A stretch of 31,424 nucleotides of DNA from a virus, in the IMG/VR virus record IMGVR_UViG_3300035670_000899, positions 1-31,424 of that record. One strand, given 5' to 3'. Positions 3,038-29,089 of this stretch are shown in pieces. The first letter of the stretch is position 1. The number at the start of each line of letters is the position of its first letter. The position numbers and the translations under genes are program-made. The notes beneath the pieces were generated by a model, which ran no database searches, was not told the DNA's origin, and worked only from the letters and a program-made list of their open reading frames with translations.

Positions 3038-3580
3038 ATGCCAAATCATTTAACTTTAAAAGAATTTAAAGATAACCTAAATAAACCAAATGCTACATCA
3101 AAAGTTGATTTCACAAGTCTTGGAGGTAATGACAGCGAACAATATGGTCTATTATTAGATGGGATTGATTATTATTTAACTAATCACAAATATGAAAATA
3201 TAAAATTAAGTGATTTAAAAAAAATTAGGGATATTGTATCAATAAATATTACTAATACTGCAGGTAATCTGAATCACGCAGATAATTTGATTGACAATAT
3301 GATAAAATTATACGGAACTTCAAATAAGGCAAAAAAAATAAGTACTAATACATTGGAAATGACTTTGGAATCAATATCTTCAAATTCACAAAATACTGAA
3401 AGTAGAAAACAAGCAATTGCTAACGCTCTTTGGAAAAAAACAACTTTTTTTACTAATCCTTCAATAAAAACTGGTACAAAAGATTTACAACCTTTGGCGG
3501 TTGCAGAATCTAATGAAATTGATTCAAATCTTATATTAGAAGAAATAAATAGAATTAAAGAAATTATGAGTAATGGATAG
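3038..3580 (+). CDS. Unknown protein, 180 aa, ending in an EINRIKEIM motif
   Basis: I place the start at ATG 3038 (MPNHLTLKEF) rather than an in-frame ATG at 2963, because the latter lies inside the previous gene and upstream of the terminator and promoter motif. The protein is soluble, rich in Asn, Ser and Lys, with no membrane segment. Its last residues LEEINRIKEIMSNG resemble the end of the next protein (KEEVNRIKKLMK). The next gene overlaps it by eight bases. Function unknown; a shared C-terminal tag suggests that the two proteins go to the same place, perhaps the virion. Confidence 0.6.
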   Translation: MPNHLTLKEFKDNLNKPNATSKVDFTSLGGNDSEQYGLLLDGIDYYLTNHKYENIKLSDLKKIRDIVSINITNTAGNLNHADNLIDNMIKLYGTSNKAKKISTNTLEMTLESISSNSQNTESRKQAIANALWKKTTFFTNPSIKTGTKDLQPLAVAESNEIDSNLILEEINRIKEIMSNG

Positions 3581-4205
3581 ATTTATTAGTCCTATTGAAG
3601 GAGAAAGGATAAAAATTGATGATATAAGTGTGCAAAAAGGAAAATATATTGTACAAAACTCAACAAATGTACTTTGTCCTTATGATGGTGAGGTTGTTGA
3701 TTCTTATGGGTTAAATTGCAATGGTAGTTATAAGATTAAACATGAAATTTCTCGTGATGGTAATATTGAAATTTTTTATTCTAATTTTTGTAACTTGCAA
3801 AAACAAAAATATTCTGTTGGTCAATTAGTTAAACAAAATAATAAAATTGGTGAGACAACTACAGAACACTTAGAATATTGGATTACAAATAAAAAAAAAG
3901 AAAAACAAGATATTAATTCGTTCTTTAGAGGATTTAAACCCTCAACAACTACCAATAAAAAAGAAGATAAAAAAGAAGATAAAAAAGAAGACAAGAAAGA
4001 AAATAAAAAAGAAAATAAAAAAGAAAACAAGAAAGAAAATAAAAAAGAACCATCAAGTCTTAAAAGTGATTCAACAACACCAACAAGTGGAAAAATAACA
4101 TCACAAAGTAAATTTCTTTTTGCGACACCATTTACACTAATACCAGATGTAATCCAAGGAGCATTAAAAGAAGAAGTTAATAGAATTAAAAAATTAATGA
4201 AATAA
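3573..4205 (+). CDS. Degenerate M23/lipoyl-like protein with a Lys-Glu repeat linker, 210 aa
   Basis: Residues about 5-105 look like a degenerate M23 peptidase (lysostaphin-like) beta-barrel: CPYDGEVVDSYG, then YKIKHE, FYSNFCNL, VGQLVKQNNKIGETTTEHLEYWI. In active M23 enzymes this last block is normally IGxTG...HLHFEI with an HxH zinc site; here it reads HLE, so the zinc site appears incomplete and the domain is probably binding rather than catalytic. Residues about 125-155 are tandem KKED/KKEN repeats, a flexible charged linker. The end, LKEEVNRIKKLMK, is shared with the upstream protein. No signal peptide is visible. The fold assignment is moderate and the function unknown. Confidence 0.55.
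   Translation: MDRFISPIEGERIKIDDISVQKGKYIVQNSTNVLCPYDGEVVDSYGLNCNGSYKIKHEISRDGNIEIFYSNFCNLQKQKYSVGQLVKQNNKIGETTTEHLEYWITNKKKEKQDINSFFRGFKPSTTTNKKEDKKEDKKEDKKENKKENKKENKKENKKEPSSLKSDSTTPTSGKITSQSKFLFATPFTLIPDVIQGALKEEVNRIKKLMK
3957..4048 (+). repeat. 12-15-bp tandem repeats coding KKED/KKEN
   Basis: Units of the form AAAAAAGAAGAT, drifting to AAGAAAGAAAAT, are repeated about eight times in frame and encode a Lys/Glu/Asp/Asn linker. The drift from KKED to KKEN suggests expansion from one seed unit. Confidence 0.8.
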
Positions 4206-5755: not shown

Positions 5756-6136
5756 GGTGGAGAGTTTGGGAATCGAACCCAATTCTTGCCCATCTCAATT
5801 ACTAAGGACTACATGCTTAGGACAACATTATTCGCAATGTTCCGAGCTATTTGATTTTTATACACCCAAAATCAACAAAATCGGTCAATTCATTTTTAGG
5901 GATGAGAATTGATTAGACAACCCTATAGTGCTCCTGTTCCTGAGTTAATGCACCCCGACTCGAAAGTAATACCCTATTGACTAGGCTACTACTGCTTCTT
6001 CAGCACGGATTAAACCTACTGCAGAAAGTTTGTTGATAACGTTGCCGTCTATCGTTTCAAACCAGTTTAACAGACTTAGTTTAGGTCTGACATGCCCCTA
6101 ATAACCAACAATGTCAATCGATACCAGTTACTCCCC
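5756..6136 (-). ncRNA. ssrA: tmRNA (transfer-messenger RNA)
   Basis: Read on the minus strand, the RNA begins GGGGAGU and ends ACUCUCC-A-CC; these seven bases pair as the acceptor stem (six Watson-Crick pairs and one G-U). Near the 3' end TTGGG-TTCGATT-CCCAA is a T arm, preceded by CTAAGCATGTAGTCC, which is close to the conserved tmRNA sequence. After GATAGAC a resume codon GGC (6046-6044) opens a 21-residue tag beginning GNVINKLS, ending AEEAVVA, with stop TAG at 5983-5981. The A of CCA is not encoded. tmRNA with SmpB rescues stalled ribosomes and appends a degradation tag. Pseudoknot regions follow the tag. Glycine as first tag residue fits Bacteroidetes. The tag is longer than usual and ends AVVA rather than ALAA. 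No smpB gene is visible, so host SmpB would be used. Confidence 0.95.
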
Positions 6137-6155
6137 TTTTGTAAAGTAATACAAT

Positions 6156-6163
6156 AATAAATA
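6156..6163 (-). promoter_or_regulatory. Late-promoter-type motif upstream of tmRNA
   Basis: On the minus strand TATTTATTATTG ends 20 bases upstream of the mature tmRNA 5' end. Because this RNA is not translated from its 5' end, the motif must be a transcription rather than translation signal. Confidence 0.6.
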
Positions 6164-6192
6164 TAATGATTGATAATTCCAAGTTTTGATTA

Positions 6193-6200
6193 TATTTATT
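6193..6200 (+). promoter_or_regulatory. Late-promoter-type motif TATTTATT
   Basis: TATTTATTTTAATAAAA lies 23 bases before ATG 6216, divergent from the tmRNA copy 30 bases away. Confidence 0.55.
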
Positions 6201-6215
6201 TTAATAAAAAAATGT

Positions 6216-7586
6216 ATGGATTATTCTAATAACGATATATTGTTTGAAAATGACAAATACTTGGCCATTAAATCTCCAAATATGGAAGAGGGTTTAAAAG
6301 TAGGTCCAGAATTCTTGACTACAACAAGACATGGTAAAAATGTCTATAATAATAGAACTGTATACTTTTTCATTAATAAAGAAGAAAAAGATACTAGATA
6401 TGGAATTATAACTCTAGCATATGGAGAATATTTTGAAGTCTATGATAATTATGGTGATGATATTCATTTAACGGATGCTTTCTATTATTTTCCAGATTTA
6501 GATAAAACAATTACAGACATAGTCGGTAATATTGATTTAATAACAACATTAGTCTTGATTGAGAATGGAAAAGAATTTGATAAATATAAATTACAGAGGA
6601 TAGATTCTAATATTGATTATATACAATATAATAAAAAAGTACCAGGTAATAGTAAAATTTATTTAGAATTTGGGGGTAACGCAGGTGTTTTGAGTTTAAT
6701 GGATTTTGATAGTAACGATCTTTATTATATTGAGGCCGTTTTAAGTACATACGGATATAGTTCTAATTTATGGGAAGGAGATACAAATTACGATTGGCTA
6801 GAAGGTAATTTATTAAATTATTTTAATGATGGTAGTAATAAACTTTTGGATAAAATTGTTTCATATATTAAACCTGAATTTTTTAATTGGAGGGATGATT
6901 ATAATATAAAGGGTAAATTATGTGAATTATTATATAATCAATTTGATAATGAAATAAGTAGAATACTAGACGATTATGATAATCATAATGAACAAGCTGG
7001 GATTAATGCACTAAAAGAAGAATTATATAGTGATTTTTGTAATCCATTTGAAAGATATCAAATACATGTAGTTAAAAGAAGTAATATAGATAGATGTTTT
7101 TATGAATATCGCACTTGGGTTTCACAATTAAAAGATTTATTAATAGCGACTAAAACAAACACTATTGAAGAGTTGATGACAAAATTATCTGAGTTCGTTG
7201 GTGGTGGTTTAAAATCTGAGATTTACGAGTATCCATATCGTGGTCAATTTGACACAGAATCTTTTAACAGAGAAGTTGAATACGAATTTGAAAAAATAAT
7301 TGATAAGATTGAAGAAAATCCTGAAAAATATTCCAAGAATATTAGTGAGAATTTAAAATTAATGGGATTACTTAAAAAGTATCAATTGAATACTCCTGTC
7401 AAAATTGATGATGAAAGAGGTTCATTTATTATCACAGGAATTAAAGATGGAAAACTTCTTGTAACACACATTAAAAAGAGTGGTGAAACAATATATAAGA
7501 GTTTCAGTTTTGAAGAATTTAATAATTTTTTATCAATGGGTGAATTATTTGAACATTTAGTTAGAAAATTAAAAAGAATGTTGTAA
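6216..7586 (+). CDS. Unknown protein, 456 aa
   Basis: I choose ATG 6216 (MDYSNNDILF), because an upstream in-frame TTG at 6186 lies over the promoter motif. The protein is soluble, acidic and rich in Asp, Asn and Tyr, without signal peptide or membrane segment. Its first 150 residues look beta-rich (NDKYLAIKSPN, TVYFFINKE, YGIITLAYGEYFEVYDN). The central part is helical, and the end (TPVKIDDERGSFIITGIKDGKLLVTHIKKSGE) resembles a small SH3-like beta domain. I do not recognise the family. It lies between the tmRNA and the peptidase gene, and the peptidase begins nine bases after its stop, so those two are probably co-expressed. Confidence 0.7.
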   Translation: MDYSNNDILFENDKYLAIKSPNMEEGLKVGPEFLTTTRHGKNVYNNRTVYFFINKEEKDTRYGIITLAYGEYFEVYDNYGDDIHLTDAFYYFPDLDKTITDIVGNIDLITTLVLIENGKEFDKYKLQRIDSNIDYIQYNKKVPGNSKIYLEFGGNAGVLSLMDFDSNDLYYIEAVLSTYGYSSNLWEGDTNYDWLEGNLLNYFNDGSNKLLDKIVSYIKPEFFNWRDDYNIKGKLCELLYNQFDNEISRILDDYDNHNEQAGINALKEELYSDFCNPFERYQIHVVKRSNIDRCFYEYRTWVSQLKDLLIATKTNTIEELMTKLSEFVGGGLKSEIYEYPYRGQFDTESFNREVEYEFEKIIDKIEENPEKYSKNISENLKLMGLLKKYQLNTPVKIDDERGSFIITGIKDGKLLVTHIKKSGETIYKSFSFEEFNNFLSMGELFEHLVRKLKRML

Positions 7587-7595
7587 TATTGTGTC

Positions 7596-8411
7596 ATGAA
7601 ACACAATTACGATTTACTCAAAAAGGTTTTGTCCATACCTACCAAGACATACAAAGAGGACTTAATGATTCAATTCCTATGTGAATGGTTAACTGAAAAC
7701 AATATCCCTTATCAAGTTGATAAGATGGGTAATGTTTATGCAACCAAACAAACGGATGATATTGAATATTTCCCTTGTGTTGTTGCACATACCGACACAG
7801 TCCACGAATTGGATACAATCAACATTAAAGAAATGATGTTACCCAATGACCAAAAGGAATTAAAATTGGCATTAAAGGCATATAACGATAACAATCAACC
7901 AACAGGGATAGGTGGGGATGACAAATGTGGTGTTTATGTATGTTTGGAATTATTAAAAAATTTACCAAATGTTAAAGCGGCATTTTTTGTCTCTGAAGAA
8001 ACTGGTTGTCATGGTTCAAAGAATGCTGATAAAGAGTTTTTCTCAAATGTTGGATATGTTATTCAATTTGATGCCCCAGGTAATTGGATGGTTAGTGAAT
8101 ATTGTATGGGGACAAAATTATTTGATAAGAAGTCAGAATTCTTCAGCAAATGTGATAAGGTGTTAACTGAGGGATTTGATAACCGAAACAAATATCAATC
8201 ACACCCTTATACTGATGTTTATGCACTTAAAAACCAATTTGATTTCTCTTGTATAAATTTTGCTGTAGGGTATTATAACTACCACACAAAACACGAATAT
8301 GTAATTGTTGAGGATGTTTTTAATACATTGGAAATTGCAAAGAAAATGATTAATGATTTGGGGAATGTGAAATATTTTGAAGAGGTTAAACCAAGTAAAT
8401 TTTTACTATAA
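7596..8411 (+). CDS. Zinc metallopeptidase of the M20/M28 clan, peptidase T-like, 271 aa
   Basis: Metal-site motifs appear in the expected order: AHTDTVHE (His65, Asp67), GIGGDDKCG (Asp108/109), VSEETGCHGS (Glu134/135), QFDAPG (Asp159) and a late YHTKHEYV histidine. This matches di-zinc aminopeptidases and tripeptidases such as PepT. The protein is shorter than PepT (about 400 aa) because the dimerisation or lid domain is missing or reduced. No signal peptide is seen, so it should act in the cytoplasm, trimming short peptides. It faces the Clp unfoldase gene tail-to-tail across a shared terminator. Recycling peptides released by Clp proteolysis is a plausible inferred role. Confidence 0.85.
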   Translation: MKHNYDLLKKVLSIPTKTYKEDLMIQFLCEWLTENNIPYQVDKMGNVYATKQTDDIEYFPCVVAHTDTVHELDTINIKEMMLPNDQKELKLALKAYNDNNQPTGIGGDDKCGVYVCLELLKNLPNVKAAFFVSEETGCHGSKNADKEFFSNVGYVIQFDAPGNWMVSEYCMGTKLFDKKSEFFSKCDKVLTEGFDNRNKYQSHPYTDVYALKNQFDFSCINFAVGYYNYHTKHEYVIVEDVFNTLEIAKKMINDLGNVKYFEEVKPSKFLL

Positions 8412-8440
8412 AAAAAGGGACTATTCAGTCCCTTTTTTCT
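8406..8440. terminator. Bidirectional terminator between convergent peptidase and Clp genes
   Basis: AAAAAAGGGACT pairs with AGTCCCTTTTTT around the loop ATTC. The stem overlaps the last codons and stop of the Clp gene. Confidence 0.85.
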
Positions 8441-10451
8441 TTTTTGATTTTTTAACTTCTTTTTCTTTAAACACTATGTTTTCTTCATTGGTTGTGAGTT
8501 CATAATTTTGATTCTCAACAACATTTCCGTTAAGTACTTCCTCTGATATGAAATCTTCAATTTTGTCTTGTATGGCTCGTTTTATTGGTCTTGCACCATA
8601 TGTTTCATCAAACCCAACTTTTGAAATTAAATCGTAAACAGATTCATCACAAGTTATATTGTAATTTAATCCATTTAATCTATTCATTAATTTTTCAATT
8701 TCAAGTTTTACAATTTGTTTAACTTCTTCTTCTTTCAATGTATTAAATACAATAATTTCATCAATACGATTTAAGAACTCAGGAGCAAAAAACTTTTTAA
8801 GTTCTTTCTTGAGAATATCTCTTTTTTCTTCTTCCTCAATATAAGAATTTGTACTTGTTTTGAATCCAACACCAGTTCCAAATTCTTGGAATTTTTTAAC
8901 CCCAAGATTGGAGGTCATAATTATGATACAATTTTTGAAGTTAATTTTTCTTCCCAATCCATCAGTAAGATGTCCATCATCTAATACCTGAAGTAATGTC
9001 GAGAATACATCTTTATTAGCCTTTTCAATTTCGTCAAATAGAATAACCGAATATGGTTTATTTTTAACTTGTTCAGTTAATTGCCCACCCTCATCATAAC
9101 CAACATAACCTGGAGGAGAACCAATCAATCTTGATATTGAATGTTTTTCTTGGAATTCTGACATATCAACTCGGATAAGATTATCTTCACTACCAAATAT
9201 TTCTTTTGCCAATTGTTTTGCTAAATATGTTTTACCAACACCAGTTGAACCTAAGAAAATAAATGAACCTATAGGTTTACTTGGGTCTTTAATACCAAGT
9301 CTGTTTCTACGGATTGATTTAGCAATTTTGGATACCGCTTCAGATTGACCAATGACTTTAGATGAAAGATTATCAGCTAATGATGAAAGTTTATTTGTTT
9401 CATCTGAGTTCATTTTTGATACTGGTATTTTGGTCATATTAGATACCACTTCATATACCAATTCAACTGAAATTTCTTTCTTTTTGGTTAATAAGTCAGA
9501 TTCAAATTTTTTCTTTTCAGATTCTAATTTATCCAATATTTTTGTTTCTTTATCACGTAAATCTGCGGCTAATTCATAGTTCTGACTTTTAACAACTTCA
9601 ATCTTTTGTTGTTTGATATCTTGAGCTTTTTGTTTCAAGTCTTCAATGATTTGTGGCATCTTAGTGTCAACTTGACTTCTAGCTCCAACCTCATCAATAA
9701 TATCAAATGCTTTATCTGGGAATTCTCTATCTGTAATATATCTTTCAGCCAAATCAACACAAAGTTTTAGAATATCATCACTATAACTTACTTTATGATA
9801 ATTTTCATATTTGTCTTTAACATTGATTAAAATCTGTAAGGTTTCTTCTTTTGAAGAAGGGTCAACAATTACTTTTTGGAAACGTCTTTCTAATGCCCCA
9901 TCTTTTTCAAAATTCTTTCTATATTCATCTAATGTTGTTGCACCAATACATTGTATTTCACCCCTTGCCAAAGCTGGTTTAAAAATGTTTGACGCATCCA
10001 ATGAACCTGATGAATTTCCAGCACCAACGATTTGGTGTATTTCATCAATGAAAAGAATTATATTTGGGGCTGATTGAAGTTCTTCAATAATAACTTTCAT
10101 TCTTTCCTCAAATTGTCCACGATATTTTGTTCCCGCAACAATTGATGTCATATCCAAGGACATAATTCTTTTATCCATTAGATTTCTTGGACATTCACCA
10201 TTCAATATTTTTAAGGCCAAACCTTCTACTATGGCAGTTTTACCACAACCAGGTTCACCTATTATGATTGGGTTATTCTTTTTTCTTCTTGATAATATTT
10301 GGGCGATTCTTGTTATTTCTCTATCTCTACCTACAACAGGGTCTAATTTTCCTTCTTCGGCAAGTTTGATTAAATCTTTTGCAAAATTATTTAACACTGG
10401 GGTATCACCTTTACCTTTTGTTGAGTAATCTCCATCTTTTGATTCTATCAT
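8421..10451 (-). CDS. ClpC-type AAA+ unfoldase lacking the N-domain, 676 aa
   Basis: Two AAA+ modules are complete. D1 has Walker A GEPGCGKT (65-72), Walker B ILFIDE (132-137), sensor GATT (170-173) and finger ALERRF. D2 has Walker A GSTGVGKT (401-408), pore region GSPPGYVGYDEGG, Walker B VILFDE (469-474) and sensor 2 GARPIKRAI. Between them KSQNYELAADLRD (about 288-300) is a UVR-like motif in the short middle domain, typical of ClpC rather than ClpB. A VGF sequence at 528-530 sits where ClpC carries its ClpP-docking loop, so the protein could feed host ClpP. The usual N-terminal Clp repeats (about 150 residues) are absent, removing the normal adaptor-binding site. The product unfolds proteins with ATP in the cytoplasm. 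It is divergent from a UVR-protein gene. Confidence 0.93.
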   Translation of the reverse strand: MIESKDGDYSTKGKGDTPVLNNFAKDLIKLAEEGKLDPVVGRDREITRIAQILSRRKKNNPIIIGEPGCGKTAIVEGLALKILNGECPRNLMDKRIMSLDMTSIVAGTKYRGQFEERMKVIIEELQSAPNIILFIDEIHQIVGAGNSSGSLDASNIFKPALARGEIQCIGATTLDEYRKNFEKDGALERRFQKVIVDPSSKEETLQILINVKDKYENYHKVSYSDDILKLCVDLAERYITDREFPDKAFDIIDEVGARSQVDTKMPQIIEDLKQKAQDIKQQKIEVVKSQNYELAADLRDKETKILDKLESEKKKFESDLLTKKKEISVELVYEVVSNMTKIPVSKMNSDETNKLSSLADNLSSKVIGQSEAVSKIAKSIRRNRLGIKDPSKPIGSFIFLGSTGVGKTYLAKQLAKEIFGSEDNLIRVDMSEFQEKHSISRLIGSPPGYVGYDEGGQLTEQVKNKPYSVILFDEIEKANKDVFSTLLQVLDDGHLTDGLGRKINFKNCIIIMTSNLGVKKFQEFGTGVGFKTSTNSYIEEEEKRDILKKELKKFFAPEFLNRIDEIIVFNTLKEEEVKQIVKLEIEKLMNRLNGLNYNITCDESVYDLISKVGFDETYGARPIKRAIQDKIEDFISEEVLNGNVVENQNYELTTNEENIVFKEKEVKKSKKKKGTE

Positions 10452-10505
10452 ATTTTTGTTTTTAACTAATTATAATATTTATTTTTACATTTTCAACTAT
10501 GTTAA

Positions 10506-10522
10506 ACTGACAAATTGTCAGT
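10506..10522. promoter_or_regulatory. 17-bp perfect palindrome in the divergent clp/UVR intergenic region
   Basis: ACTGACAA-A-TTGTCAGT is perfectly symmetric and lies between the Clp gene start (10451, minus) and the UVR gene, ending 14 bases upstream of a sigma70-like -35 box. It looks like an operator. A T-run follows, so a weak terminator hairpin is an alternative. Confidence 0.5.
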
Positions 10523-10536
10523 ATTTTTTTTAATTC

Positions 10537-10565
10537 TTGACTAGTTAATTTAATTGGTATATAAT
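10537..10565 (+). promoter_or_regulatory. Sigma70-consensus-like promoter TTGACT-N17-TATAAT
   Basis: TTGACT at 10537-10542 and TATAAT at 10560-10565 are separated by exactly 17 bases, upstream of the UVR gene. This is the E. coli-type rather than Bacteroidetes-type consensus; in AT-rich DNA it may partly be chance. Confidence 0.45.
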
Positions 10566-10607
10566 TGGATTATAAAAATGAAAATAAACTTTAAAAAATA
10601 TAATATT

Positions 10608-11042
10608 ATGAACAGTAAAGATTTTTATAAAAGATTTGAGGAAATTTTAAATGAAATTTTCAATCAAGACAATCAGAAATTTAATACTCCTATGGATGGA
10701 TTTTTAAAAGGGTTAAACCCAGATGACATTTCAAAAGAAATTAAAAAATATAGAAAGTCAATTAAAGAATCAAATGATGGATTATTCACAACTATTAGTT
10801 TCATTTTTACTAATCCACCATTTAATGATAAGAGTGAAGTTAATGAGTTGAAATCTAAACTAGATGAATGTGTATCAAATCAAGATTTTGAGGAAGCTGC
10901 AAGATTAAGAGATAAAATTAAAGAACTTGAGAATAACTCATCTAAGGTTAAAGATTTGAAAAAAGAGTTGGATGTCGCGATTAAAGAACAAAATTTTGAA
11001 AGAGCGATTGAAATCCGAGATGAATTAAAAAAAATAAACTAA
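10608..11042 (+). CDS. Small protein with two tandem UVR motifs, 144 aa; possible Clp adaptor
   Basis: The C-terminal half holds two UVR motifs: ELKSKLDECVSNQDFEEAAR-LRDKIKELE at about residues 79-107, then DLKKELDVAIKEQNFERAIE-IRDELKKI at about 115-142. UVR motifs are helical hairpins known from UvrB, UvrC, the ClpC middle domain and the ClpC partner McsA. The N-terminal 75 residues are unrecognised, with no zinc cysteines, so it is not a full McsA. I prefer ATG 10608; ATG 10578 is also in frame. It is divergent from a phage ClpC-like unfoldase that itself has a UVR motif, which makes an adaptor or regulator of that unfoldase the leading hypothesis. A rho-independent terminator follows. Confidence 0.75.
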   Translation: MNSKDFYKRFEEILNEIFNQDNQKFNTPMDGFLKGLNPDDISKEIKKYRKSIKESNDGLFTTISFIFTNPPFNDKSEVNELKSKLDECVSNQDFEEAARLRDKIKELENNSSKVKDLKKELDVAIKEQNFERAIEIRDELKKIN

Positions 11043-11085: not shown

Positions 11086-11328
11086 ATGGCAATTTTAAGA
11101 GAAGAAATCAGAGGTACAAAAATTATTAATGAAATTCAGTCAAGTAATATTAAAAAGACAGAATTTGATACAGAAACAAAAGAGTTAGTTGTGGAATTTA
11201 ACAACGGACTCAGATACTCCTATGAAAATGTCCCCCATCAAGTGTATACCCAATTTAGGATGTCGGAATCTCAAGGTAAGTTTTTTAATTCCAAAATAGC
11301 AAAATCATACCAATATAGAAAATTGTGA
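11086..11328 (+). CDS. KTSC-domain protein, 80 aa
   Basis: The whole protein fits the KTSC domain: SSNIKKTEFDTETKELVVEF, then NGLRYSYENVPHQVY, then MSESQGKFFNSKI and a terminal YQYRKL. KTSC domains are small beta-rich modules found alone or at the ends of phage and bacterial proteins, named for an often conserved Lys-Thr-Ser-Cys set; their biochemical function is not settled. No separate promoter is obvious after the upstream terminator, so readthrough may express it. There is a normal ATG behind an A-rich leader. Confidence 0.85.
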   Translation: MAILREEIRGTKIINEIQSSNIKKTEFDTETKELVVEFNNGLRYSYENVPHQVYTQFRMSESQGKFFNSKIAKSYQYRKL

Positions 11329-11360: not shown

Positions 11361-12107
11361 ATGGAAAGTTTAAATAAAGTTATATCTAGTTTTAAATTAA
11401 ATTCAACATTACAACCAAAAATTTGGGTTGATGGTGGTTCAATAATGAATCCAAATGTTAGAAAGCATTTACTAGAAATTGCAAATCAATTCATTGATTC
11501 TTTTGGGGTGGATGTTGTAATTGATGATATTATTGTTAAAGGTTCAATTGCGAATTATAATTGGTCAGAATATTCGGATGTTGATTTACACATATTAGTA
11601 GATTACAAACAATTTTCAGATAAACTTAAAGATATGTATGTTGAATATTTTGATTTAAAAAAAATAGTTTTTAATCAAAAAAGAAACATAAAAATTTTTG
11701 GTTATGATGTTGAAGCATATGTTGAGGGTATTGATGATAAAGGTGTTAGTGGTGGTATTTATTCTATTCTAAATGATGAATGGATTAAAAAACCAATCAA
11801 AGAAAAAATGAAAGCTAGTAATGAAGACATTACAATTAACGTTAAAAAATGGATGCGAATTATTGATAATTTAATTAAACATTTGGAAGGTGAAGATATT
11901 GAAACAATTCGTAATGGTGTAAAAGTGATTAAAGATAAATTAAAAAAATATAGAATAAGTGGTTTAGATAAATCTGGTGAATTGGGATTAGAAAATTTAG
12001 TCTTTAAAGTTTTGAGACGTAATGGTTATATTGAGAAATTATATAATATACCAACAAAACTTATTGATAAAAAACTTTCTTTGGATGAAAAATTAAGAAT
12101 TAAATAA
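11361..12107 (+). CDS. Predicted nucleotidyltransferase (minimal NTase fold), 248 aa
   Basis: Residues 58-80 read IIVKGSIANYNWSEYSDVDLHILV, the signature of the polymerase-beta-like nucleotidyltransferase fold: Gly61-Ser62, then Asp73-x-Asp75 as metal ligands. A third carboxylate may be in the later strand VEAYVEGID. The C-terminal half is helical and lysine-rich. Enzymes of this superfamily transfer a nucleoside monophosphate to RNA, antibiotics or proteins; the substrate cannot be predicted. Similar short NTase-like proteins occur in large phages near structural genes. A promoter-type motif lies just upstream, and the gene precedes the putative head operon. Confidence 0.7.
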   Translation: MESLNKVISSFKLNSTLQPKIWVDGGSIMNPNVRKHLLEIANQFIDSFGVDVVIDDIIVKGSIANYNWSEYSDVDLHILVDYKQFSDKLKDMYVEYFDLKKIVFNQKRNIKIFGYDVEAYVEGIDDKGVSGGIYSILNDEWIKKPIKEKMKASNEDITINVKKWMRIIDNLIKHLEGEDIETIRNGVKVIKDKLKKYRISGLDKSGELGLENLVFKVLRRNGYIEKLYNIPTKLIDKKLSLDEKLRIK

Positions 12108-16439: not shown

Positions 16440-18209
16440 ATGAGTTTAACAAAAGAACAAGTAATGATTGAATATCTTAAGTGTATGAAAGATACCCCAT
16501 ACGCGTTAAGAACATATCTGGAAACCTATGATAATACTGTATCAAAATATGTCCCATTAGAGTTATTTCCAGACCAAATTTCATTACTTAATGACTATGA
16601 AAATTACAATGAAAACATTGCATTAAAGTACAGACAAGCTGGTGTATCAACAGTAACTGCGGCTTGGGTATCATTAAAAATAGCTTTTGCCAAAAAGACA
16701 AAACCTGAAAAGATTCTAATCATTGCCAACAAATTAGATACATCACAAGAGATGGCAAATAAAATAAGAATGTTTATTGGTCAATGGCCAAGTTGGGTTG
16801 GAATTGATTTTTCTGTTGATAAAAATTCACAAAAACATTATAAGACAAACAATGGATGTGAAGTAAAAGCTGTGGCAACCTCAAAGGATGCTCTACGTGG
16901 TTTTACACCAACAATCCTAGTATTTGACGAGGCGGCATTTATTGACGCGGATTCAGACTTTTGGGCGGCTTGTATGGCCTCACTATCAACTGGGGGTAAA
17001 GTTATTGTAGTGTCAACACCAAATGGTTATGACCCAATTTATTATGAAATATATAATCAAGCAAATAGGGGAATGAATGACTTTAAAATATCTGAGATGT
17101 TTTGGTTTAGAGACCCAAGATATACCAAAGATTTATTTTTAGTCAAAACACAAGATGTTATTCATTATCTCCTTAATAAAACAGAATATAGTAGTAATGA
17201 TATTATAAGTTGGGGACATATTCCATTTGATGAAAGAAATTACGAGGAACTTAAATTAATGATGAATTCAGGGTACAAACCTTGTTCATCTTGGTTTGAG
17301 GGAATGGTAAAGAAACTTAAATATGATAAGAGAAAAGTTTCACAAGAGTTAGAGTGTAACTTCTTGGGTTCTGGTGATAACGTATTTGATTCTCTTTTAA
17401 TGCAAAGAGTTAAAGAAAATATGATTAAAGAACCCCAAAATAAAATGATAGGTAATTCTCTATGGATATGGAAAGAACCTATTATGGGACATAAATACGT
17501 TATGGGTGTGGATGTCAGTAGAGGGGATAGTGAAGACTTTAGTTCATTCCAAATTATTGATTTTGATACAAGAGAACAAGTTGCAGAATATGTTGGAAAG
17601 TTACCTCCAGATACAATGGCTGAAATATGTTATAAGTGGGGTAATATGTATAATTGTTTTATTGTGATAGATATAACTGGTGGTATGGGGGTTTCAACCT
17701 CAAGGAAGTTACAAGAGTTGGGTTATAAAAATTTATATGTGGATGGGGTAGATTTGGCAAACAAATGGAAATATGACCCCAAGGCATTGGATAAAATTCC
17801 TGGACTTAATTTTAATAATAAACGTGTTCAGATAATTGCATCATTTGAGGAAGCAATGAGACATGAATTTAAGATATATAGTTCAAGGTTATTTGATGAG
17901 ATGAACACCTTTATTTATGTCAATGGAAGACCAGACCACCAAAAGGGACAACACGATGACTTAATAATGTCAATTGCAATGGCGACTTATATTGCTGAAT
18001 CATCTTTCAGCAGTTTGGAAAAAGTCACTGAACAAACAAAGGCAATGTTGGAATCTTGGGCTGTAAGTAATAATGAAAATATGGGAAAACAATTAGAATT
18101 TAATCCAGTAATACCATATGGGCATGATAGATTACAACAAAGAAATCAAAATGTTTCAAAGGAAGATTATATGAAATACTCTTGGTTATTTGGAAATCAA
18201 AGAAGATAA
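16440..18209 (+). CDS. Large terminase subunit (T4 gp17-like)
   Basis: The protein is the DNA-packaging motor ATPase and nuclease. The ATPase part has a deviant Walker A YRQAGVST (64-71; Val in place of the usual Lys, a variant known in terminases), Walker B ILVFDEA (159-165) and coupling motif VSTPNG (191-196). The nuclease part is RNase H-like with carboxylates in GVDVSRGDSEDF (Asp358), FIVIDITGG (Asp411) and HDDLIMS (Asp506/507). At 589 aa it is close to T4 gp17 (610). It pumps DNA into the prohead through the portal and cuts the concatemer. It stands alone between a terminator and the next promoter motif, upstream of a 49-aa gene and the portal. Confidence 0.97.
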   Translation: MSLTKEQVMIEYLKCMKDTPYALRTYLETYDNTVSKYVPLELFPDQISLLNDYENYNENIALKYRQAGVSTVTAAWVSLKIAFAKKTKPEKILIIANKLDTSQEMANKIRMFIGQWPSWVGIDFSVDKNSQKHYKTNNGCEVKAVATSKDALRGFTPTILVFDEAAFIDADSDFWAACMASLSTGGKVIVVSTPNGYDPIYYEIYNQANRGMNDFKISEMFWFRDPRYTKDLFLVKTQDVIHYLLNKTEYSSNDIISWGHIPFDERNYEELKLMMNSGYKPCSSWFEGMVKKLKYDKRKVSQELECNFLGSGDNVFDSLLMQRVKENMIKEPQNKMIGNSLWIWKEPIMGHKYVMGVDVSRGDSEDFSSFQIIDFDTREQVAEYVGKLPPDTMAEICYKWGNMYNCFIVIDITGGMGVSTSRKLQELGYKNLYVDGVDLANKWKYDPKALDKIPGLNFNNKRVQIIASFEEAMRHEFKIYSSRLFDEMNTFIYVNGRPDHQKGQHDDLIMSIAMATYIAESSFSSLEKVTEQTKAMLESWAVSNNENMGKQLEFNPVIPYGHDRLQQRNQNVSKEDYMKYSWLFGNQRR

Positions 18210-18217
18210 TATTTATT
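18210..18217 (+). promoter_or_regulatory. Late-promoter-type motif TATTTATT
   Basis: TATTTATTAAATAAAAG begins one base after the terminase stop and 20 bases before ATG 18230. Confidence 0.6.
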
Positions 18218-18229
18218 AAATAAAAGATT

Positions 18230-18379
18230 ATGGGATTTGAAAAAAGAAAAACATCTGGTAAAATAAATGCTAATGGAAGATTGATAGTACCCGGTCAAAA
18301 ACCAATAATGGTTAATCCTGGTGGAAACACTGATATTAATCAAAAAAAAGGTAACACTAATAATGGTACTAAACAGTAA
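18230..18379 (+). CDS. Small unknown protein between terminase and portal, 49 aa
   Basis: ATG 18230 opens a 49-codon frame ending TAA 18377-18379. The product begins MGFEKRKTSGKINANG and is a basic, Gly/Asn-rich, probably disordered peptide with LIVPGQKPIMVNPGG in the middle. The start follows a promoter-type motif at the same 20-base spacing as terminase, which supports it as a real gene. I do not recognise it. Its location between terminase and portal suggests a packaging or neck accessory role, but that is only positional. Confidence 0.6.
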   Translation: MGFEKRKTSGKINANGRLIVPGQKPIMVNPGGNTDINQKKGNTNNGTKQ

Positions 18380-18417
18380 AGTATTTAATTTTTATCAAAT
18401 AAATTTAGATTTAATTT

Positions 18418-20229
18418 ATGGAAAATAATAACAAATATACCGTATGGTAAAGATTATCTCAAGCCTTCGGACCTAATGAACTTTTAAATCAAGACTATCC
18501 AACATATAAGTTTGATAGAAAAGAATTATTACGTACAACATCCAAACAAGAATATGATAAAGAGTTATTACAAGCTCAACAAACATATTATTTAGCTAAT
18601 CAATGGACTAAAATTGAAAGTAATCTATATACCCAAGCAGTATATTACGAACCAACTAGATTGGCCTCATTTTACGATTACGAATCTATGGAGTATACAC
18701 CAGAAATATCTGCAGCACTAGACATTTATGGTGAGGAATCAACAACTGTTGACCAAAATGGTAATATGTTACAGATATATTCAGAGTCAAAAAGGATTAA
18801 ATCTATTTTAGCTGATTTATTTAATAATATTTTGGATATTAACACAAACTTACCAATGTGGACAAGAAATACTTGTAAGTATGGTGATAATTTTGTTTAC
18901 CTTAAACTTGATCCAGAAAAAGGTATTGTTGGTTGTATGCAACTACCAAACATTGAAATTGAACGTTTGGAACGAGGTGCTCCTACGCAAGCTGGTAGAC
19001 AAAATGTTGAAGACCCCGTTGAAAACAAAGGTTTAAGATTCAAATGGAAAGTTAAAGACATGGAGTTTAATTCTTGGGAAATTGCTCATTTCCGTTTATT
19101 TGGTGATGATAGAAAACTTCCATATGGTACATCAATGTTGGAAAAGGCAAGACGTATTTGGAAACAATTATTATTATCTGAGGATGCAATGTTGATATAT
19201 AGAACTTCAAGAGCACCAGAAAGAAGGGTGTTCAAAGTCTTTGTTGGAAATATGGATGATAAAGATGTTGAAGCTTATGTACAACGTGTTGCAAATAAGT
19301 TTAAACGTAGTCAAGTTGTTGATTCTCAGACTGGTAATGTTGATATGAGATTTAATCAAATGGCTGTTGACCAAGATTATTTTATTCCTGTTAGAGACCC
19401 AGCTCAAACTATGCCAATTGAAACATTACCTGGTGGTGCGAATTTAGGTGAAATTGCCGATATTGAATATATCCAAAAGAAATTATTAACCGCTCTACGT
19501 GTACCTAAAGCATTCTTAGGTTTTGAAGAACCTGTTGGTGATGGTAAAAATCTTTCTTTGATTGATATAAGATTTGCTAGAACAATCAATAGAATACAAA
19601 AATGTATGGTTGCCGAATTAAATAAAATCGCCATTATACATTTATTCCTTTTAGGTTTTGAAGATGAGTTAGGTAACTTCACTTTAGGTTTGACAAATCC
19701 ATCAAGTCAGGCTGATTTACTTAAAATTGATATATGGAAAGAGAAAGTCGCACTTTATAAAGAATGTGTTACGGCAATTGAAGGTATTTCACCAACATCA
19801 GTTACATGGGCTAAGAAACATATTATGGGATTCTCTGAAGAGGAAATTAAACTTGATTTACAACAACAAAGGATTGAAAAGGCTGTTGGTGCTGAATTAA
19901 CAAATACTGCGACAATTATAACACATACTGGTTTATTTGATAATATTGATAAACTTTATGGAACTAAGTCAGGTACAACTGAAGGTGGAGCACCACCACC
20001 ACCCGGTGGAGGAGGAGAAGAAAGTGGAGGAATGCCACCACCACCTCCTGGAGGTGAAGAATCACCCCCACCTCCAGGTTTAGCACCAGAATCAATTAAT
20101 AAAAATAATTTAAATATTCTATTGGAAAGTGATTCATTAACTGAGGATGATTCTTATATTGATTTGTCAAAAGTAAGAAATTATTTGGGTGAAATGGAAG
20201 TACATCTGAAAAAACTTTTAGATGATTGA
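18418..20229 (+). CDS. Portal protein (T4 gp20-like) with an in-frame TAA at codon 11
   Basis: The frame opens at ATG 18418 (MENNNKYTVW), meets TAA at 18448-18450, and continues open with RLSQAFGPNEL for another 70 codons to a TTG at 18661, then to TAA at 20229. The downstream part is clearly portal: SMEYTPEISAALDIYGEES, YRTSRAPERRVFKVFVGNM and TLPGGANLGEIADIEY match the gp20 core. The 70 codons after the TAA look like genuine portal N terminus and contain no ATG, GTG or TTG start. The C terminus is Pro/Gly-rich, then ILLESDSLTE. The portal forms the dodecameric DNA gate of the head. Readthrough, an error in the sequence or non-standard initiation could explain the stop. Length without the stop is 602 aa, normal for the family. 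Confidence 0.9.
18448..18450 (+). other. In-frame TAA inside the portal gene
   Basis: TGG-TAA-AGA interrupts the portal frame after ten codons. One base change from CAA or AAA would create it. Other genes in the window end normally on TAA, so a genome-wide reassignment is unlikely. Confidence 0.85.
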
Positions 20230-20237
20230 TATTTATA
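20230..20237 (+). promoter_or_regulatory. Late-promoter-type motif TATTTATA
   Basis: TATTTATAATAAAAAAAC starts one base after the portal stop and 19 bases before ATG 20249, which supports that ATG as the true start of the next gene. Confidence 0.6.
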
Positions 20238-20248
20238 ATAAAAAAACT

Positions 20249-20965
20249 ATGAAATTTGGACTTTTAAAATCAAAAATAGAAAAATACTTGTTAGAATCCT
20301 ATGGTAGAAATTTATTTAAGGATGAGTTAAAGATATTCAAAAAACTTGTTTTGGAAAACAAAAATTTGAAAAAATTGTTTTTTGTCTACGATGAATTGAA
20401 TACAAATAAAGGGTACACTAAAGATATTGCAGACCAATTCATAAATGAATGTATTACAATATATGAAAATACTATTAACAAAATAAATCCAAAAGATTTA
20501 AAAGTGTTAGAATTATGGGTTGATGATGTTAAGAGTGAAAATCAATATGATGATATTGATAATTTATTTTCAACAAATATTCTGACATTAGAAAACAAAA
20601 TAAAAAGTAGAAAAATAATTTCAGAATCTTTGATTAAAAAATCAAAAGATGAAAATAGTGATGTTATTAATTTACCCATTTCAACAATGGTTAATATAGC
20701 AAACCAAACAATTAACAAATATATCTCAGAGTTAAACGAATCGGATAAGAAAAGTTTAATTAGTTTATTAAAAGAAGACGATAATAAATTAAATAGTGAG
20801 TTTGATATATTGAAAATAGATATAATTTCAAAATTAAATGAAATTAAAAAAACATCTGACATTGAAACATCAAAAAGAATTGATGAATCAATTGAAAAAA
20901 TAACCACAGAAAAATATGATAAATTAACTTATTTCAAGTTAAAAAATCTAAAAGAAAATCTCTAA
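20249..20965 (+). CDS. Unknown helical protein downstream of portal, 238 aa
   Basis: I choose ATG 20249 (MKFGLLKSKIEKYLLESYGRN) over ATG 20222, because 20222 lies inside the portal gene and upstream of the promoter motif. The protein is almost entirely helical and lysine-rich, with no recognised domain; the N terminus carries a possible L-x-E processing site (YLLE). Proteins at this position, between portal and protease, are often scaffold or head-core components in T4-like phages, but I cannot assign it. Its stop overlaps the end of the convergent bS21 gene by a few bases, and no terminator is evident between them. Confidence 0.65.
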   Translation: MKFGLLKSKIEKYLLESYGRNLFKDELKIFKKLVLENKNLKKLFFVYDELNTNKGYTKDIADQFINECITIYENTINKINPKDLKVLELWVDDVKSENQYDDIDNLFSTNILTLENKIKSRKIISESLIKKSKDENSDVINLPISTMVNIANQTINKYISELNESDKKSLISLLKEDDNKLNSEFDILKIDIISKLNEIKKTSDIETSKRIDESIEKITTEKYDKLTYFKLKNLKENL

Positions 20966-21153
20966 TCTTCTTTTGATTTTATTTGTTGCACATATTTTGC
21001 TTTATTAACAGTAGTTCGTCTTGTTACTGATTTTTTTGTGAATTCTTTTCGATTTCGTAATTCACTCATTAGTTTAGTTTTAATTACCTTACTTTTAAAG
21101 AGTTTTAAGGCTTTCTCAATGTTTGTGTTTTGATCAACTTTTACAATCAACAT
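20962..21153 (-). CDS. rpsU: Ribosomal protein bS21 (phage-encoded)
   Basis: The 63-aa product aligns along its whole length with bS21: LIVKVDQNTNIEKALKLFK, then ELRNRKEFTKKSVTRR and VNKAKYVQQ. Size and basic character fit. bS21 is the small-subunit protein near the anti-Shine-Dalgarno end of 16S rRNA and the one most often carried by phages. Residue 54 is Tyr, the position that I recall holding the 16S tail in flavobacterial ribosomes, so this copy could preserve tail sequestration and favour phage messages without Shine-Dalgarno sites. The gene is transcribed against the head genes, from a divergent region containing a near-perfect dyad. Confidence 0.93.
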   Translation of the reverse strand: MLIVKVDQNTNIEKALKLFKSKVIKTKLMSELRNRKEFTKKSVTRRTTVNKAKYVQQIKSKED

Positions 21154-21181
21154 AATTTTATTTTTTTGACATTTATTAAAA

Positions 21182-21214
21182 TATCAGTTACTTTTTATAA
21201 AAAATAAACTGATA
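21182..21214. promoter_or_regulatory. 33-bp imperfect dyad between divergent bS21 and a plus-strand gene
   Basis: TATCAGTT at 21182-21189 is the exact reverse complement of AACTGATA at 21207-21214. The centre (TTTTTATAAAAA) is nearly symmetric too. It is placed to control both divergent genes, as an operator or back-to-back promoters. Confidence 0.5.
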
Positions 21215-21228
21215 AACTATTAAAATTA

Positions 21229-21684
21229 ATGAAAAAAGGCAAAACCTCTAAAATCCAAGGTTTTAAGACTATAAAAGTAATATATGGTACAACAGATTCT
21301 TTTGAATTAAAATCAATTTACTTAAACATACAAACTTGGGTTGAACCAAAAGAGGAAGAAGAAAATTGGAATCGAATTATTTTAAACTTATCTAGGTCAA
21401 TAAAACACACAATTTATCAAAATTTAGACAAGGTTATTTTTAAAGAAAATTTTATATCTGATTTGGATTTACGTTCAAGTGGAATAACATTAGGTAAAAA
21501 ATCATTCCTAAATTTAGAAATAAATTTATATCTTAATCCAACACAAATAGATTTTAAATCTTCAAAATTAAAAGAAAGTCTCAAAGAACTTACCAAAAAT
21601 ATATTACATTATAATTTTTTAAGGAATGAACATTTTAGTTTTTTTTTAACAAAAAACGACAAAAAAACTAATGTCAAAATATAA
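21229..21684 (+). CDS. Unknown protein, 151 aa
   Basis: This small basic protein begins MKKGKTSKIQGFKTIKVIYG and continues with beta-type strands (SIYLNIQTWVEPKEEEENW) and helices. There is no membrane segment and no motif known to me. It starts 14 bases after the dyad element and precedes the protease promoter motif. Position within the head block suggests an assembly role, not shown by sequence. Confidence 0.6.
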   Translation: MKKGKTSKIQGFKTIKVIYGTTDSFELKSIYLNIQTWVEPKEEEENWNRIILNLSRSIKHTIYQNLDKVIFKENFISDLDLRSSGITLGKKSFLNLEINLYLNPTQIDFKSSKLKESLKELTKNILHYNFLRNEHFSFFLTKNDKKTNVKI

Positions 21685-21699
21685 ATATATATTTTTAAA

Positions 21700-21707
21700 T
21701 ATTTATA
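21700..21707 (+). promoter_or_regulatory. Late-promoter-type motif TATTTATA
   Basis: TATTTATATAATAAAATC lies 23 bases before ATG 21723. A TATAAATA lies 20 bases farther upstream (21680-21687). Confidence 0.65.
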
Positions 21708-21722
21708 TAATAAAATCATACA

Positions 21723-22442
21723 ATGAGCTTAAAAATTTTAAACCCTGGTGAGTTAGGTAGAGGTATTTTAATTGAAAATGATGGGTGGGTTTCCCCAACA
21801 GATGGATTTAACTCTAAAATGTTACAAGAATCCAAACAAATGTTAGACCATTCAAAACCATTTGAATTCTATGCTGTATTACAAAAATACAATACACCAA
21901 ATAGAAATGGTAGAATCTACCCAGAAAAGATATTAAAAAGGGAAGCTGAGAATTATAAAAAGATGATTCAAAAAGGAACATCATTATCAGAATTAAATCA
22001 TCCTGAATCATCTTTAATTGACCTTGATAGAGTATCTCATATTATAAATGAAGTTTGGTGGGAAGGACCAGTTTTAATGGGTAAACTCAAATTGTTAACA
22101 TCCCCAGGATTCCACGAAAGAGGTATAGTATCAACTAAGGGTGATATGGCCGCAAATTATTTAAGACAAGGTGTTACTCTTGGTATATCTTCTCGTGGTG
22201 TTGGTTCATTAAAAAAAGTTGGAGAACAAAATGAAGTACAAGATGATTTTGAATTAATATGTTTTGATTTAGTTTCATCACCATCAACACCTGGTGCTTA
22301 TCTTTTCTTAAACAAAGATGATAAACATATGTTTGAAGAAAATTTAGATGATGATAGGAAAATGGCAGTAGAAAGGAATGTTGGAGAAAGTGGAAATAAA
22401 TCTTTAGAACTAATGAAAAAATTATCTTTATACGGATATTGA
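21723..22442 (+). CDS. Prohead maturation protease (T4 gp21-like serine protease), 239 aa
   Basis: The herpesvirus-assemblin-type fold is indicated by NRNGRIYP near residue 61, the catalytic-histidine block SELNHPESS (His93), the nucleophile block GISSRGVGS (Ser156/157) and a following FDLVSSPSTPGA. These match gp21 proteases, which cut scaffold and capsid precursors after (L/I)-x-E inside the prohead. The length is close to T4 gp21 (212 aa). It has its own promoter-type motif and is followed by a small gene, then scaffold and capsid, the usual T4 order. Candidate target sites are visible in several neighbours. Confidence 0.93.
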   Translation: MSLKILNPGELGRGILIENDGWVSPTDGFNSKMLQESKQMLDHSKPFEFYAVLQKYNTPNRNGRIYPEKILKREAENYKKMIQKGTSLSELNHPESSLIDLDRVSHIINEVWWEGPVLMGKLKLLTSPGFHERGIVSTKGDMAANYLRQGVTLGISSRGVGSLKKVGEQNEVQDDFELICFDLVSSPSTPGAYLFLNKDDKHMFEENLDDDRKMAVERNVGESGNKSLELMKKLSLYGY

Positions 22443-22501
22443 TTTTTATATTTAATCTTCTTATTATTTTTTTAATTAATTAATTAAAAAATTTAAATAA
22501 A

Positions 22502-22717
22502 ATGGAAGAAGGACAAAAATATTTTATTGCAAAAATCTCTGAAGAGTTTGTTGACGAAGAAACTGGAAAGAAAAAAAAGTTAAAATTAGAAAAATTAGTT
22601 ATGGGTTACTCACCAACAGATGTTGAGACAAAAATAACTAAAATTTATGAACACTATACTTTTGATTGGAGAATTACCGCAATAGTAGAAAGTAAAATTG
22701 ATGAAGTGATTGAATAA
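22502..22717 (+). CDS. Small protein between protease and scaffold, 71 aa
   Basis: The protein reads as one small domain: YFIAKISEEFVDEETGKKKKLKLEK, then SPTDVETKITKIYEHY and WRITAIVESKIDEVIE. The beta-strand start and TDVETKI helix recall the DUF4494-type small proteins of Bacteroidetes, but the match is weak. A perfect terminator hairpin follows. In related phages a small gene often lies here; no function is known to me. Confidence 0.6.
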   Translation: MEEGQKYFIAKISEEFVDEETGKKKKLKLEKLVMGYSPTDVETKITKIYEHYTFDWRITAIVESKIDEVIE

Positions 22718-22735
22718 AAAATCACAAATTATTTT

Positions 22736-22762
22736 GGGAGACATATGTCTCCCTTTTTTTTT
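22736..22762 (+). terminator. Rho-independent terminator with perfect stem
   Basis: GGGAGACATATGTCTCCC is a perfect 18-base palindrome followed by nine T residues, between the protease unit and the scaffold/capsid unit. Confidence 0.9.
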
Positions 22763-22840
22763 GCCATTATTCAAATATTTATAATTGTTAAAAATATTTG
22801 GTTAAAAATTAATTTAACTAACTTTTTTTAACATCGTATA

Positions 22841-22848
22841 TATTTATA
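22841..22848 (+). promoter_or_regulatory. Late-promoter-type motif TATTTATA
   Basis: TATATTTATATAATAAAA lies 35 bases before ATG 22876, leaving the longest plus-strand leader of the set, for the scaffold and capsid genes. These are expected to be the most strongly expressed. Confidence 0.65.
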
Positions 22849-22875
22849 TAATAAAATAAACAAAAAACCAAGAAA

Positions 22876-24441: not shown

Positions 24442-24477
24442 ACAATAAACAAAACTAAAACAAAAATCAAATACAAA

Positions 24478-29088: not shown

Positions 29089-29089
29089 A

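Follow-up and report, generated by a model that had tools for sequence, protein, structure and literature searches.

Genes for transfer-messenger RNA (tmRNA, ssrA) are already on record from mycobacteriophages and Bacillus phage G (PMC4131195) and from phage Melnitz (PMC9004378), with their purpose only guessed at; the latter paper proposes, for a marine phage, that host proteins are tagged so that their amino acids can be recycled. The available text of these two reports describes no attached unfoldase, partner or phage SmpB. Here we examine a 31,424-nucleotide virus fragment, IMG/VR record IMGVR_UViG_3300035670_000899 (hereafter the window, taken at its full length), which likewise carries an ssrA gene. 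Unlike those of the phages just named, as far as their descriptions go, this tmRNA is of the one-piece type, occurs throughout a lineage and has a conserved long tag. Between positions 5,756 and 11,042 it lies with genes for a peptidase, a ClpC-type unfoldase and a protein with two UVR motifs. We propose, with a rough probability of 0.55, that these genes make up a phage-owned rescue-and-destruction block, serving ribosome rescue and proteostasis in jumbo phages of Bacteroidota. A search of the open-access literature found no paper describing this gene set.

A published counterpart of the unfoldase is ClpC of Staphylococcus aureus (PMC12583610). When its N-domain is removed, this protein pairs its rings through the tips of the M-domain and is inactive, and breaking the tip contact with the F436A substitution in the N-domain-less form leads to strong, adaptor-free degradation of GFP-SsrA. 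According to the same work, the ClpC pore reads the SsrA tag, and the adaptors characterised so far all bind the N-domain. In plastids, ClpC1 is reported to trap UVR proteins, and a ClpC motor is likewise found there with UVR-domain interactors (ClpF, EXE1/2, UVR2-4; PMC8889267).

Two groups of Bacteroidota jumbo phages come close to the lineage in question. The phages of Chen et al. 2022 (PMC9723584) infect Bacteroidota, have low-GC complete genomes of 293–331 kb and, like the window, carry the gene for ribosomal protein bS21 among the head genes but on the reverse strand. Chaperones and a Clp protease are mentioned in that paper, and an unspecified AAA ATPase is among its 100 most transcribed genes; its main text contains neither the word tmRNA nor the word UVR, and a tag, SmpB or operator is not described there. 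The moraphages (Perez-Hernandez et al. 2025; PMC12619734), aquatic Bacteroidota jumbo phages that form at least a similar group, share 26 core families that include a ClpA-type ATPase and a "putative peptidase"; DnaK, DnaJ and Hsp20 occur in some members. The main text of that paper does not mention tmRNA, SmpB or ClpP and does not link these genes to one another.

The unfoldase, its divergent partner and a palindrome

The unfoldase (8421–10451, minus strand; 676 aa) carries AAA, AAA_2 and ClpB_D2-small domains and a UVR motif at residues 275–305, and its closest solved relatives by sequence are ClpC proteins. The ClpP-docking loop reads VGF at residues 528–530, and the tip of the M-domain is Tyr292, which aligns with F436 of S. 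aureus ClpC (counted along the printed chain). Among the best 80 matches to Bacteroidota ClpC, the closest are 56–60% identical to the window protein. In a FastTree phylogeny with 80 Bacteroidota ClpC and four huge-phage sequences, built with no ClpA or ClpB outgroup, the phage Clp proteins form one clade (support 99). The N-domain is absent from all 165 phage Clp proteins measured, which have 5–49 residues ahead of the D1 linker, whereas at least 165 residues precede the matching region in 71 of the 80 Bacteroidota ClpC and 41–71 in the other nine. Because the clade stands beside Bacteroidota ClpC and the N-termini are short, the phage protein is most simply explained as a Bacteroidota ClpC that has been shortened by the loss of its N-domain. 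It is a natural counterpart of the form engineered in S. aureus, without the domain that the adaptors characterised in that work bind (PMC12583610).

Relatives were collected by scanning viral contigs with Clp, the UVR protein and SmpB, at most the best 80 loci being taken from each scan. Loci sharing an identical 600-base stretch (and so a near-identical Clp) were merged, close relatives still counting separately. The result was 169 dereplicated loci with a near-full Clp, with four huge-phage loci set apart; Clp matches below 300 bits, Clp open reading frames (ORFs) shorter than about 1.8 kb and, for the UVR counts, ORFs longer than 400 aa were left out. Loci fetched with the UVR protein or SmpB bias the counts of those two genes, and the Clp-fetched subset was also scored separately. 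Across this set the docking loop is retained as [VIL]GF in 163 of 169 Clp proteins, and the M-domain tip residue is Tyr in all 158 with a readable motif (11 unreadable). The Walker, pore and finger motifs and the M-domain are kept with few deviations in 63 aligned sequences, Walker A being deviant in a few.

Divergent to Clp lies the two-UVR-motif protein (10608–11042, plus strand; 144 aa from the first ATG at 10608, in an ORF that opens with TTG at 10554). PF02151 matches two stretches of it at 68.8 bits, with only one short repeat model otherwise above its Pfam cut-off, and the two motif tips are Phe94 and Phe130. Its profile finds McsA, UvrB and the ClpC M-domain among structures in the PDB, and in the M-domain alignment the Phe at the tip of the first motif falls on F436 of ClpC. 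Tip residues are Phe or Tyr in all motifs read across 88 proteins (87/87 first and 83/83 second motifs).

Several known identities were considered for this protein and rejected. McsA combines a zinc-finger part with UVR; the NCBIfam McsA model reaches 41.9 bits against a cut-off of 210, on the UVR part only. UvrB and UvrC are excluded by the length of 144 aa, by the presence of UVR motifs only, without a nuclease or helicase domain, and by scores far under the cut-offs. Nor is it a host protein of the BFN/DUF151-UVR kind, as the Bacteroidota matches inspected are either about 200 aa long and resemble DUF151 plus UVR (by eye) or, by length, ClpC or UvrB. There is no match to a known phage family either, among PHROGs at E ≤ 0.01 or in isolate phages at E ≤ 1e-5.

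The slot between the KTSC gene and Clp does not always hold this protein. Among 161 scored slots, 86 hold a UVR gene, 28 an Hsp20 gene and 47 neither; within the slot, which is all that was scored, the two never occur together. The Clp-fetched subset gives 58, 28 and 33 of 119. Both kinds of partner are divergent to Clp wherever they occur (87/87 UVR genes and 29/29 Hsp20 genes), and the Hsp20 identity was confirmed by Pfam in two members. On the Clp tree, in which 66 of 245 inner branches are weak, the slot changed its content at least 11 times, six of these changes being between UVR and Hsp20. The initial annotation had proposed checking related genomes for co-occurrence of the four genes and had named its absence as refuting. 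The genes do co-occur: the peptidase and the tmRNA (below) are constant, the UVR protein (86/161) is not.

Between Clp and the UVR gene lies a 17-bp palindrome, ACTGACAAATTGTCAGT (10506–10522), which we regard as a candidate operator. Its core, GACA-N3-TGTC, occurs a single time in the window, at 10509. Within 150 bp upstream of Clp the core is found in 73 of 84 loci with a UVR partner, 23 of 27 with Hsp20 and none of 47 with neither (96/111 with either partner against 0/47), compared with 0.1 per 162 in shuffles; after merging identical stretches the counts are 69/79, 23/27 and 0/41. Of the 149 core matches in these loci, 128 fall within the stretches upstream of Clp. The palindrome also accompanies a further chaperone gene. 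In a 195-kb relative (L095:9766-12179) a UVR gene lies one base from DnaK, the end of the core being 78 bases ahead of the UVR gene, and a palindrome stands at the corresponding site before a UVR gene in L102 (L102:9772-10321); at the Clp locus of the L095 genome itself there is neither palindrome nor UVR gene. Because the palindrome accompanies each of them, the UVR protein, Hsp20, ClpC and DnaK are tied to one candidate operator.

Promoter geometry around the palindrome is moderately above expectation (n = 92), on the Clp side in 28 loci against 7.5 in shuffles, on the partner side in 33 against 10.4 and on both in 15 against 1.3. The looser core turns up in 3 of the 19 short loci around ClpP or SmpB that were inspected. 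The possibility that the palindrome is an operator of host chaperones was considered and rejected: of 29 Bacteroidota genomes, three contain exact TGACAAWTTGTCA, at no site adjoining a chaperone gene and at one adjoining a thioredoxin-like gene (both by eye). As judged from sequence, the association of palindrome and partner is the strongest functional evidence we have beyond synteny. That Clp and its divergent partner are co-regulated thus appears well supported, and is considerably surer than the full rescue-and-destruction reading.

The tmRNA, its tag and the peptidase

The one-piece tmRNA gene (5756–6136, minus strand) was found by ARAGORN and scores 87.2 bits with Rfam RF00023 (cut-off 47; E 9.3e-33). 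The ends of its tRNA-like part pair, G3:U70 is kept and the 3' end is ACC; a terminator-like hairpin followed by a T run lies just past the gene (about 5742–5715, by eye). Its folding energy is just slightly below that of shuffled sequences (z −2.08), and the case for a tmRNA therefore rests on the covariance match and not on energy. Promoters of Bacteroidota follow a −33/−7 consensus, and upstream of the gene there is a candidate promoter, TTGG...TATTACTTT (6142–6182, minus strand; by eye), that is a variant of this type. The strict pattern TTG-N17..23-TAN2-3TTTG, from which the window departs, stands upstream of the tmRNA in 111 of the 137 relatives, where shuffling gives 3.0; upstream of Clp it is found in only 39 of 162 against 3.5.

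Among 48 related records, RF00023 is over its cut-off in 45 and matches at E ≤ 0.001 in 46. The two without a match (G029 and G042) end less than 2 kb past Clp, and the one whose tmRNA is under the cut-off (G047) has no Clp in its 43 kb. ARAGORN alone reports a tmRNA in 8 of 106 loci, a set in which some contigs appear more than once and some loci are truncated. This figure reflects limited sensitivity and not absence, since 83 of these loci show the gene in a profile search and Rfam detects it over the cut-off in 45 of the 48 records. The tRNA-like end CCACC is readable in 31 of 50 unique tmRNAs. G3:U70 was scored in 26 of these 31, and the other five have U70 with the 5' end unscored (a fuller 5' end was found for two). 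A GTTCGA-like T arm is present in only 20 of the 31. No isolate phage has a tmRNA that resembles that of the window by blastn.

The tag reading frame of the window, GNVINKLSAVGLIRAEEAVVA followed by a stop (5981–6046, minus strand; ARAGORN coding part 91–156), encodes 21 aa. Tags could be read in 147 of 149 loci; they have 20–22 residues, mostly start with GN and share a core ...K(L/M)..(V/I/L)GL.... The C-terminal residue is A in 139 of the 147 (97 of these ending VA), with TI in six and VS in two. Across relatives, the first 14 codons give a ratio of nonsynonymous to synonymous variation (pN/pS) of 0.37 when read in the tag frame and of 1.0 and 2.3 in the other frames. Because the ratio is low only in the tag frame, the tag peptide is under selection at the protein level. 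By comparison, the tags of 28 of 29 Bacteroidota genomes have 8–10 residues ending in LAA or MAA (GENNYALAA type), and for the remaining genome the ARAGORN reading looks wrong. Judged by its residues, the phage tag is not a copy of the host tag.

The metallopeptidase (7596–8411, plus strand) is M20/PepT-like, with the motifs HTD, GGD.K, EET, FDAP and YHT..EYV. These motifs, which we take to contain the metal-binding and catalytic residues, are retained in at least 95% of 61 aligned sequences. In Pfam the protein scores above the cut-offs for M42 (27.6 bits) and M28 (23.6 bits) and under it for M20 (19.7 bits); PHROG 4191, "peptidase", matches at E 3e-44, and PepT-like NCBIfam matches are under their cut-offs. 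The peptidase appears to be tied to the block by its position, which is the weakest of the ties proposed here.

Between the peptidase and the tmRNA lies a protein of no assigned family (6186–7586, plus strand; TTG start, ATG at 6216). Its position is kept and its sequence is divergent, with 23–30% identity to 13 of 14 aligned relatives. AlphaFold models it with a mean predicted local distance difference test (pLDDT) of 83.8, and fold searches with it gave no match at E ≤ 0.001. The initial annotation had placed tmRNA, peptidase, a ClpC-like unfoldase that keeps VGF and a two-UVR protein side by side. All four are indeed present where it put them, as RF00023, Pfam and PHROG matches and the VGF at residues 528–530 attest, and all lie within 5.3 kb; tmRNA and peptidase are nevertheless not strictly adjacent, because the 6186–7586 protein separates them.

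The arrangement is constant among relatives. All 136 loci that extend at least 3.5 kb past Clp have a peptidase within 6 kb on that side, and all 84 that extend at least 8 kb have a tmRNA within 10 kb; the Clp-fetched loci alone give 100/100 and 65/65. Clp and tmRNA are on the minus strand in the window and the peptidase and UVR genes on the plus strand. All 149 loci having a tmRNA carry it on the strand of Clp, and the peptidase is opposite to Clp in 158 of 165, being turned round in seven where it still follows Clp. Same-strand peptidases still following Clp were noted in L260, L264, L272, L274-L277, L300-L302, L304, L305 and L438.

Two further components of tagging and degradation occur in part of the lineage. 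Two sets of related records, 48 and 44 in number with two records in both, contain SmpB in 7 and 2 (9 of 90 distinct) and ClpP in 3 and 20 (22 of 90 distinct). A tmRNA of the lineage lies near SmpB in 34 of 65 SmpB-fetched loci, some of them near-copies, and is adjacent to it in L343. In three other phage records (L450, L453 and L465) SmpB is within about 1 kb of ClpP, and two fully translated phage ClpP look intact (catalytic residues by eye). The L465 record, of 348 kb, has Clp and tmRNA elsewhere in it.

Huge phages, from which tmRNA and SmpB have been reported as in some relatives here (PMC7162821), in our analysis also hold ClpP and Clp, but with the parts mostly dispersed, unlike the block described here. 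SmpB and ClpP are each found in 15 Prevotella-phage records, and Clp in five huge-phage records with a Prevotella host. One of the huge phages, LR756504, has all four of Clp, SmpB, ClpP and tmRNA. Its SmpB gene is 3.7 kb away from Clp and its ClpP gene 11 kb away from the tmRNA, but some 254 kb separate Clp and the tmRNA.

A possible mechanism and its alternatives

The destruction of phage-tagged proteins by the phage ClpC together with ClpP is our best inference from these data. The tmRNA, expressed from a host-type promoter, is expected from its family to enter stalled ribosomes with SmpB of the host, or of the phage in some relatives. The stalled chain would then receive the phage-specific tag of about 21–22 residues, mostly ending in -VA. 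Tagged chains would enter the pore of the N-domain-less ClpC and be degraded by ClpP of the host or, in relatives that carry it, of the phage. We propose that ClpC is expressed together with the partner in the divergent slot, a step for which co-regulation is supported, and that the two proteins make contact. The UVR hairpins resemble the M-domain and could bind its tips, thereby opening inactive head-to-head double rings, with Hsp20 substituting elsewhere. In the last step, which is the weakest, the peptidase may trim the resulting peptides to amino acids.

The role given here to the UVR protein, that of an activator which prepares ClpC for tags read by the pore, draws on the S. aureus ClpC work (PMC12583610), on the alignments to F436 and on the trapping of plastid UVR proteins (PMC8889267). 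It is also possible, and equally so, that binding at the M-domain tips holds ClpC inactive. A stronger version of the proposal is a self-contained viral pathway of trans-translation and proteolysis in which the phage marks stalled products with a tag of its own and ClpC reads that tag directly, the two-headed UVR protein undoes ring pairing as a mimic of the M-domain tip and a dedicated operator, found also with Hsp20 as partner or with the UVR gene ahead of DnaK, governs the gene pair. This version is tentative, and we think it probably does not hold in full; if true, it would represent a new mode of ClpC control and a phage chaperone regulon.

A number of observations weigh against a rescue-and-destruction block. 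In the published work, ClpC that lacks the N-domain but has its M-domain intact shows no activity (PMC12583610), so that the model needs an activator, which is unproven. The structure that AlphaFold predicts for the UVR protein is of poor quality (pLDDT 60.4) and too uncertain to use. The 47 of 161 slots with neither UVR protein nor Hsp20 are not compensated at the M-domain tip: loss of the aromatic residue in phages lacking a partner was considered and is ruled out, since the residue is Tyr in 47/47. The tmRNA itself is without the GACA-N3-TGTC palindrome. Searches of G001-G010, the records closest to the window, gave neither ClpP nor SmpB; any of these records may be incomplete. In two huge phages with a clear tmRNA, this gene is at least 40 kb from Clp. 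The peptidase family occurs widely in isolated phages of other kinds (328 records). Finally, gene order is also conserved beside the block, among TerL, portal, KTSC and nucleotidyltransferase genes; because all loci belong to one lineage whose head genes are ordered too, the conserved adjacency is weaker than it looks and may be inherited.

This last point can be extended to an explanation of its own, namely that unrelated genes have come to share the head-gene region of one lineage and have simply kept their places. The equally conserved order of TerL, portal, KTSC and nucleotidyltransferase genes, the peptidase family in many other isolated phages and the dispersal of most parts in huge phages would all be expected. 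We nevertheless consider it unlikely that order was merely inherited, for the palindrome tracks the presence of a partner, chaperone-type genes have entered the slot again and again, and one group of relatives has SmpB close to the tmRNA. Another alternative is a phage chaperone set: ClpC with UVR protein, Hsp20 or DnaK would fold, disaggregate or clear phage proteins such as capsid parts under a stress-type operator, and the tmRNA would rescue ribosomes separately. Such a set would fit the alternation of UVR protein and Hsp20 (at least six switches on a Clp tree with many weak branches), the UVR–DnaK operon behind the same palindrome and the separate host-type promoter pattern of the tmRNA. 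It fits less well with the ClpP loop kept in nearly all Clp proteins, with ClpP in some relatives, with a motor of ClpC and not ClpB type, and with tmRNA and Clp sharing strand and neighbourhood in every long-enough locus. On balance a chaperone set is possible but doubtful.

Rescue by tmRNA of ribosomes from cut mRNA is established, and the window also encodes an RNA ligase of the DRB0094 kind (1661–2686). Both facts suit a counter-defence role in which tmRNA and ligase sustain translation when host toxins cut mRNA or tRNA, with Clp being incidental. A phage tag under selection and a retained Clp would then be left unexplained, and the ligase is 3 kb away from the tmRNA; we judge this explanation to be very improbable.

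We thus favor a rescue-and-destruction block, and the suggestion of the initial annotation that the genes form one system is partly supported: the palindrome joining Clp and its neighbour and the SmpB or ClpP of some relatives point in that direction, whereas the peptidase is linked by position only. Such a block suggests that the infecting virus has a protein quality control of its own. Because the tmRNA has a conserved tag and belongs to a lineage-wide block together with an unfoldase, to which some relatives add SmpB and ClpP, the question of phage tagging and degradation can be put to a straightforward test in vitro. A candidate for breaking the ClpC M-domain contact is the UVR protein, and the palindrome with its chaperone partners points to a phage regulon.

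Neighbouring genes and the phage lineage

The record encodes T4-like head genes, as identified by a PHROG-type search: the T4-like terminase, portal, prohead protease and major capsid protein occupy 16440–26319 on the plus strand. Among the phage records listed, the best by terminase are 24–29% identical. A 128.5-kb relative record contains the genes of the window at 100% together with an identical tag. Amid the head genes, and on the opposite strand like Clp and the tmRNA, lies the phage-encoded bS21 (20962–21153, minus strand; PF01165, 48 bits). By its gene content the window is placed in an uncultured lineage of T4-like Bacteroidota jumbo phages, with the bS21 arrangement as the signature.

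Three translation or proteostasis genes (bS21, Clp and tmRNA) are therefore on the minus strand within a plus-strand head-gene region, and bS21 has the strand of Clp in 5 of 5 dereplicated loci having both. The far border of the partner slot is formed by the KTSC-domain protein (11086–11328, plus strand; PF13619), which is adjoined by a nucleotidyltransferase-like protein (11361–12107; weak Pfam matches) that is present in related loci too. The RNA ligase is on the plus strand and scores 208.7 bits with its NCBIfam model against a cut-off of 151.15.

Short end motifs recur in four window proteins (28889–29458, 3038–3580, 3573–4205 and 26440–27942), namely LTESDL..RLIKRVIVE at the start, EE(I/V)NRIK..M at the end and KKRILNLH near the start. 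By analogy with T4, we presume that these may be head-targeting peptides cut by the prohead protease. Proteins starting with LTE(S/G)DL occupy the Clp slot in four relatives (L072, L073, L079 and L081).

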